From: Linnemannia elongata
Taxonomy: Eukaryota; Mortierellomycota; Mortierellomycetes; Mortierellales; Mortierellaceae
Reading direction: 5' to 3'
DNA length: 64,000 nt
NCBI GenBank assembly: GCA_036320915.1
Contig: JAXBDG010000002.1
Span: forward strand, 1,860,001 to 1,924,000
How positions within the stretch are numbered: the stretch's first letter is position 1; every line of letters starts with the position of its first letter. Of the stretch, positions 14,003 to 15,532 are shown piece by piece. The notes beneath the pieces were generated by a model that had not been told where the DNA came from, searched no databases, and was given only the letters and a program-made list of their open reading frames with translations. Position numbers and translations under genes: made by a program.

Positions 14003-15532
14003 ATGGTTCACTTCACCGGCTCAGACATCACCCTCTTTGTCATTGGCTTCTTCTTGCCTCCTCTGGTAAGCCCTCTGTCAAGAACCTGTTGCACACGCAC
14101 GGGTTGTCTAATTGGTGTATGGGTGAAACGTCTTCTAACAATTGTATACCGCACCCTCTCCCCCATCTCTCGCCTCTCTTTTGAATCCACTTGTAAAATG
14201 ACGGGAATGTCACCTTCCTTAGGCTGGTAAGTAGCTTCGATGTCTGCCTTTGAAGGACTCCTCCCATCTCAATGACACTCGTTTACGCATGGAAGAGACA
14301 CGCTATTCTTCACTTTAGCACGCTAAAAACATTCTTGTGGCCGACCACCCTTCGTTTTCCTCAGAGCGCCATAAACCAGCGCAGGATGTAAACGAGGGAT
14401 GAAAAAAAAAAACACTCAGCAAATCACGTAATCTTTGTTCTCATACTTGCGTTTCTTCTTTCTTTCTCTACGCAGTTCTCTTCAAACAAGGATGTGGGTG
14501 TGAATTTTTAATCAGGTAACGAATACTGGCCAGTCTTGTTTTTGTTATTTTATCGCGCCTCGTTTGAATACGTTTCGTGTATGTGTGCGTGGGTGCATGT
14601 GTGTAGACATTTTGCTTTGTTTGTTTGTTTGCTTGTTTGCTTGTTGGTTGCTTTGCATTGCGACTGGAGGAGATGCATGATTTCTTTTCCGTCCCTCACT
14701 CTTTTCCATTCCCCACCTCCTCGATTTTTTTTTTCATGGCAATCTGCGACGAAAACTCTGTGAATGTGTTCACTCGACAGACGCTCCACAAGGGCCTGGG
14801 TCTTTTGTGCAACCAATTGGGAGTTTTTCTTGTTTGTGTTTTGCTGATATACTTTCTTGTTGGATAAGCAGCAAGAAAAAAGGCGAATCTCACACACGCG
14901 GGCGTGTATGGACAAAGAAAACAAACAACGCCGCGCATTTTCTGTCACTCCTCCCATTTGCTGTCTATATTTTGTTTCTGATCGTGCACTTCCAACTAAA
15001 AACTCGCTCTCTCAACTCGTGTGCACAATTCCTTCCGCTTGTTGCGCGCTTACCATACAGTTTGGGTCTGACCCTCCTCGGACATGTCCCCGGCATTGTC
15101 TACGCTTGGTGGATTATCTATACCAACCGCGAGGACCCCAGAACCCGCCGTCGCATCAACCACGGTGGCCAGAACAGTGTCGACCGTCGCTCGTACCTCG
15201 CCGTCGCTCAGCAGGGACATGCTGACTCCCCTCCTTCCTCCGGTGGTGCTATCGTCCATGCTCCCCACAGCCATGACCCCCAAGTCCAGGTCCACAGCGG
15301 CGGCCAGTCACAGACTCACACCACTGTTGATAAGTCTCAGGAGCAACAACATCCTGGTCTACCTCACCAAAATAGTTCCACCCGCACAATTACCACCACC
15401 ACGACCACTCGCACCTCGTCCAACGGCGGTCCTCCCCAGACCATCCAAACCATCATTACTTCCCAGAATGGCGAGGTTATTGACAAGAAAGTTGTTGTAG
15501 TCGACAAGAAGGATACCCCTCCCGCCTACTAA
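14003..15532 (+). CDS. PMP3: PMP3/UPF0057 (SNA-type) plasma-membrane proteolipid with long tail
   Basis: Small two-helix membrane protein of the PMP3/RCI2/SNA family, linked in yeast and plants to membrane potential and salt tolerance or, for SNA members, to endosomal sorting. Exons: 14003-14065, 14223-14226, 14476-14515 and 15061-15532, giving 192 residues. The product reads MVHFTGSDITLFVIGFFLPP, L, then A-V-LFKQGCGCEFLI, then SLGLTLLGHVPGIVYAWWII, matching the family from end to end (helices about 8-25 and 35-56). Ala22 and the first base of Val23 come from a 4-nt exon, GCTG, flanked by CCTTAG and GTAAGT; without it the frame breaks. Residues 60-192 form a hydrophilic His/Gln/Thr-rich tail, which the 50-60-residue members lack. 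Intron 3 (545 bp) is long for this window. Confidence 0.85.

Follow-up and report, generated by a model that had tools for sequence, protein, structure and literature searches.

In plants and filamentous fungi, several exons have been described that measure only a few nucleotides. The Fusarium gene CYP621A contains an exon of a single nucleotide that is backed by RNA reads (PMC12940212). Exons of 4 and 5 nt have been published for rice, and the plant genes APC11 and VPS55 carry conserved 1-nt microexons that are missing from annotations (PMC8831610). For the single-nucleotide exon of Arabidopsis APC11, intron definition with a stepwise removal of the neighboring introns has been proposed (PMC4674806), and in Trichoderma virens a microexon serves as a condition-dependent switch of the transcription factor Xlr2 (PMC11121469).

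Here we describe the sequence GCTG (positions 14223..14226, forward strand) in a gene of Linnemannia elongata. It lies in a stretch of 64,000 nt (contig JAXBDG010000002.1, positions 1,860,001 to 1,924,000), which we call the window. Sequence comparison gives us high confidence that GCTG is a genuine and probably constitutive four-nucleotide coding exon of a PMP3 proteolipid gene. It adds to the ultra-small exons already known from plants and Fusarium. A preliminary description of the locus had placed four nucleotides near the lower limit for splicing; four is not the lower limit, however, as published cases include exons of a single nucleotide (PMC4674806; PMC12940212; PMC8831610).

Each of the described systems shares some features with GCTG and differs in others. 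The CYP621A exon is likewise fungal, lies in a conserved motif, was inferred from out-of-phase flanking exons and is found across species, but it comprises 1 nt, is supported by RNA and belongs to a P450 gene of Fusarium (PMC12940212). The rice 4-nt microexon has the exact size of GCTG and yields a truncated protein when left unannotated, whereas its support, like that of the other plant microexons, comes from RNA-seq and RT-PCR (PMC8831610). The APC11 exon is also too small for exon definition, although it is a 1-nt exon of a plant and was tested in protoplasts (PMC4674806). Xlr2 provides a microexon of a filamentous fungus whose annotation once lacked part of the protein; it is a condition-dependent switch of a transcription factor (PMC11121469), while GCTG is probably constitutive. 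In the literature searched, to which most subscription journals did not belong, no published microexon in PMP3 or in Mortierellaceae was found. The significance of the locus lies in a conserved 4-nt exon in two old paralogs of an early-diverging fungal lineage; with its two natural copies and its numerous sequenced relatives, the gene family is convenient for studying how a fungal spliceosome handles tiny exons.

Gene structure and the Pmp3 product

The gene occupies positions 14003-15532 of the forward strand and comprises four coding exons. Exon 1 (14003..14065) extends from the ATG to the residues LPPL, where it ends in phase 0, and is followed by intron 1 (14066..14222; 157 nt, GTAAGC...CCTTAG). 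The microexon holds an Ala codon and the first base of a Val codon between strong splice sites (CCTTAG/GCTG/GTAAGT). Intron 2 (14227..14475; 249 nt, GTAAGT...ACGCAG) leads to exon 3 (14476..14515), which starts in phase 1 at ACGCAG/TTCTC, encodes the rest of the Val, LFKQGCGCEFLI and the start of a Ser, and ends in phase 2. After intron 3 (14516..15060; 545 nt, GTAACG...ATACAG), exon 4 (15061..15532, stop included) encodes the second half of the Pmp3 domain and a hydrophilic tail; it has a match within the same genome. All three introns are of the GT-AG type, and the joined exons form an open frame of 192 amino acids whose stop codon ends at 15532. Within the genome (51.1 Mb, 32 contigs), the 18-mer TTCCTTAGGCTGGTAAGT has a single occurrence. 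The phase of exon 1, the coordinates of GCTG, its strong flanking sites and the lengths of the first two introns thus agree exactly with the preliminary description.

The PMP3-family identity and the Mortierellaceae lineage proposed earlier are likewise borne out. The product containing GCTG fills 49 of 49 positions of the Pfam Pmp3 model (PF01679) with 67.6 bits, the curated cut-off being 22.9, and this full-length match places it in the Pmp3 / RCI2 proteolipid family. Members of this family have two membrane segments, reside in the plasma membrane and contribute to membrane potential or to salt tolerance. A protein search retrieved 19 related proteins at E <= 0.001; at the same threshold, no solved structure related by sequence was found.

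GCTG would supply the Ala codon and the first Val base of the motif LPPL-AV, which we place where the first membrane segment ends. Skipping it leads to a stop after 32 amino acids, and this short form gave no match in the Pfam search at E <= 0.001. The earlier claim that GCTG restores the conserved product therefore holds, and this gene can yield a complete Pmp3 protein only when GCTG is included, as the skipped form falls out of frame and soon meets a stop. By analogy with APC11 (PMC4674806), intron definition probably takes out the two flanking introns in turn, a 4-nt exon being too short for the bridging that exon definition requires; after the first of them is gone, the splice site left over would lie within a longer exon.

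Alternative splicings and chance matches

In order to compare GCTG with other ways of splicing the gene, we enumerated GT-AG splicings of the region from about 14030 to 14500 that contain at most one middle exon. Exon 4 and the donor of exon 3 were held constant, GT donors could lie at 14030 or later, and the limits were a minimum of 40 nt for introns and a maximum of 150 nt for middle exons. The HMM used for scoring was derived from four sequences outside the microexon-bearing genes of this study, namely the database proteins P0049, P0050 and P0051 (the latter two from Ascomycota) and the paralog L002 on contig C1. The GCTG product ranked first among 131 distinct full-length GT-AG products with 76.9 bits, 9.5 bits ahead of the runner-up at 67.4 (median 60.9). 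The rejected candidates, with another middle exon, a single intron or a shifted GT donor, all had lower domain scores. With the sites of exons 1 and 3 fixed, only three middle exons of up to 30 nt keep the frame (4, 7 and 25 nt), and GCTG alone among them has consensus sites on both sides. It therefore shows the features expected of a coding microexon: it is very short, has a canonical splice site at either end, lies between introns of 157 and 249 nt, and is needed for the reading frame and the conserved product.

The chance of such a match was estimated from 5000 dinucleotide shuffles and from 308 tiles of 410 nt covering both strands of the window. A bare AG-N4-GT pattern is common (46% of shuffles, 193/308 tiles). 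Its stricter form YAG-N4-GTRAG occurs in 0.54% of shuffles and 8/308 tiles, and a four-base exon encoding Ala-Val with any AG and GT in 0.82% and 7/308, respectively; both properties together were found in 0/5000 shuffles and 0/308 tiles. The exact sequence YAGGCTGGTAAGT has five places in the 51.1-Mb genome when both strands and the GCTG site itself are counted, as compared to two for a reversed-pattern control, which corresponds to an expectation of about 2e-5 per 410 nt. The other exact sites lie at C5:126311, C6:931257, C7:310102 and C30:1382562.

RNA structure that brings the splice sites together was considered as an aid to the exon and rejected: shuffled sequences fold as well as 14003-14515 does (energy z -0.01), and the region shows no special structure.

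Paralogs and the age of the exon

A search of the genome with PF01679 returned eight matches at E <= 10, three of them over the cut-off. A further gene of the window gene's type (L006, contig C4:1078694-1081771) contains the same four bases at C4:1079817-1079820, between the same two introns, which here measure 173 and 110 nt; its counterpart of intron 3 has 240 nt, and the boundaries of exon 3 match at L006:1238-1277. The successive junctions are CTC/GTAACG, TATCAG/GCTG/GTAACA and ACATAG/TTGGT, and the protein across them reads MVNFSGADIFLFIIAFFLPPL-AV-GLKQGCGADFLIS... While the exon match in this C4 paralog falls below the Pfam cut-off when taken alone (21.9 bits), the spliced product covers 49/49 positions with 73.2 bits.

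Across the first 207 coding bases, identity between the two genes amounts to 70% overall and to 51% at third positions. In their intron-exon-intron regions the longest common word, AGGCTGGTAA, is situated at the microexon. A blind blastn comparison of the intron regions gives the shared 10-base word an E value of only 0.17, and the word carries weight only in that its location and its letters had been foreseen. The pattern YAGGCTGGTAA is found 34 times in the genome (both strands, both genes included; reversed control 45), which means an expectation of about 1e-4 for the 287 nt of the paralog. Conservation of the exon is thus seen directly in paralog DNA, and in other species as traces in proteins. 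Since the GCTG exon is shared by the window gene and an old paralog, the comparison makes it very likely that the microexon predates the duplication behind the two PMP3 genes, and very probable that GCTG is a real, conserved coding microexon.

Skipping in the C4 paralog also produces an early stop, after LPPLLV and 23 amino acids in total. These stops in both genes (32 amino acids in the window gene) would suit a regulatory use, in which GCTG is included only sometimes and skipping switches off Pmp3 via nonsense-mediated decay; for condition-dependent microexons, Trichoderma Xlr2 offers a precedent (PMC11121469). We nevertheless regard such a use as improbable, as the near-consensus sites of the window gene favor constitutive inclusion and many exons with a length not divisible by three would likewise bring about a stop when skipped. 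Similarly, we can only speculate, with little confidence, that the exon, having arisen before the PMP3 duplication in Mortierellaceae, has been kept in both copies as a frame-setting switch. Were this the case, a membrane protein related to stress could be tuned throughout the family by how efficiently its transcripts are spliced.

Two further PMP3 genes in the genome are of a MALTC-DIFKFIF type and are found on C1 (L002) and C31 (L003/L007). L002 carries the whole ILPPLGVMLEKGCG stretch in one exon, with no intron at the place of the microexon, and in L003 an intron appears by eye to follow LLE instead. The other PF01679 matches, on C9, C30 and C28, are weak and below the cut-off.

Traces of the exon in relatives' protein models

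Three protein searches returned 51 distinct proteins, of which 48 (P0001-P0048) were taken as the lineage and P0049-P0051 were left out. Forty-four of these come from genera that NCBI places in Mortierellaceae, the other four being P0002, P0003, P0020 and P0039. Exon 1 is present in 28/48 and absent from 20/48 proteins. The continuation LPPLAV is read by five of the 28, namely P0012 and P0026 (Gamsiella), P0019 (L. elongata), P0030 (Podila verticillata) and P0032 (Lobosporangium), and these could stem from genes that lost the introns. The remaining 23/28, as judged from the proteins, break at the exon 1 junction, in line with the earlier expectation that gene predictors would miss the exon. 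The microexon offers one cause for this recurring error at one and the same junction, and many database entries for Mortierellaceae PMP3 proteins probably need correction.

The absence of exon 1 from the 20 proteins, together with several others that lack exon 3, might be taken as a sign of a decaying pseudogene in which GCTG is a chance match. We consider this reading scarcely credible, given an intact coding sequence of 192 amino acids with its 19 relatives, the zero counts in shuffles and tiles, and the same exon in the C4 paralog.

The broken models fail in several ways. Some run into intron 1 (P0007, P0008, P0011, P0020), others jump to a later AG inside exon 3 (P0013, P0022) or pass over exon 3 altogether (P0031, P0037, P0042). 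P0022 (F5H01DRAFT_349433, Linnemannia elongata) is very probably the public model of the C4 gene itself; it joins LPPL to QGCG, with the five residues AVGLK absent. P0001, from L. elongata AG-77, uses a chance exon in intron 2 and reads LPPL-HAKN... This model bears on the case that the preliminary description had named as contrary evidence, a different exon between 14066 and 14475 giving a conserved product. At the level of sequence, its product is not conserved, because exon 3 is lost and only Pmp3 positions 29-49 are matched (23.5 bits).

Even wrong models appear to betray the microexon in other species, where codons are back-inferred from proteins; in DNA it was seen in the two L. elongata genes. 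P0009 (LPPL-AGK) and P0015 (LPPL-AGM) fit GCN GGN AAR and GCN GGN ATG, i.e., GCNG running into a GTAAR or GTATG donor, and P0014 (LPPL-AGT) would be GCNG read through a GT donor, a less clear fit than the former two. P0006 (FFLQ-AV-LFKQGCG), P0016 (RHQQ-AV-LFKQGCG) and P0028 (WYISQ-AV-GLKQGCG) fit CAG/GCNG spliced properly to exon 3. Altogether, AV stands directly before exon 3 residues in 9/48 proteins: the five with LPPLAV, these three and P0018 (MAV-ALKKGCG). A scan of viral contigs gave nothing on the microexon in relatives' DNA, and the scan of genome contigs yielded three Halomonas loci, a bacterial relative of the query without bearing on the exon.

Four public models of the paralog clade (P0027, P0029, P0033, P0034) read LPPL-VI in place of LPPL-AV. 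This is what a donor shift would give with a GTAAGT donor, and it raises the question of whether the window gene could do without a microexon: an exon 1 donor located 4 nt further (GTAA/GC) would create a GC-AG intron and the product LPPL-VI-LFKQGCG, which keeps frame and length and matches 49/49 Pfam positions with 60.8 bits. This score is, however, 6.8 bits below that of the microexon product (67.6), and the shifted site would be GCCCTC, far from GCAAGT, the usual GC donor. In the C4 paralog, CG follows GTAA, which makes the shift impossible where the microexon is present, and P0020 (LPPL-VNP) fits GTN AAY, likewise with neither GT nor GC at the place of the shifted donor. We therefore judge a shifted donor very unlikely and retain GCTG as the exon that joins LPPL to exon 3.

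Apart from the splicing of the gene, the hydrophilic tail of the window protein closes with a PPxY motif (PPAY, 15518-15529). Such motifs bind WW domains, for example that of the Rsp5 ubiquitin ligase, and the tail may thus recruit an Rsp5-like ligase. A C-terminal PPAY, PPVY, PPSY or PPPY is present in 15/18 of P0001-P0018, the exceptions being P0010, P0017 and P0018.
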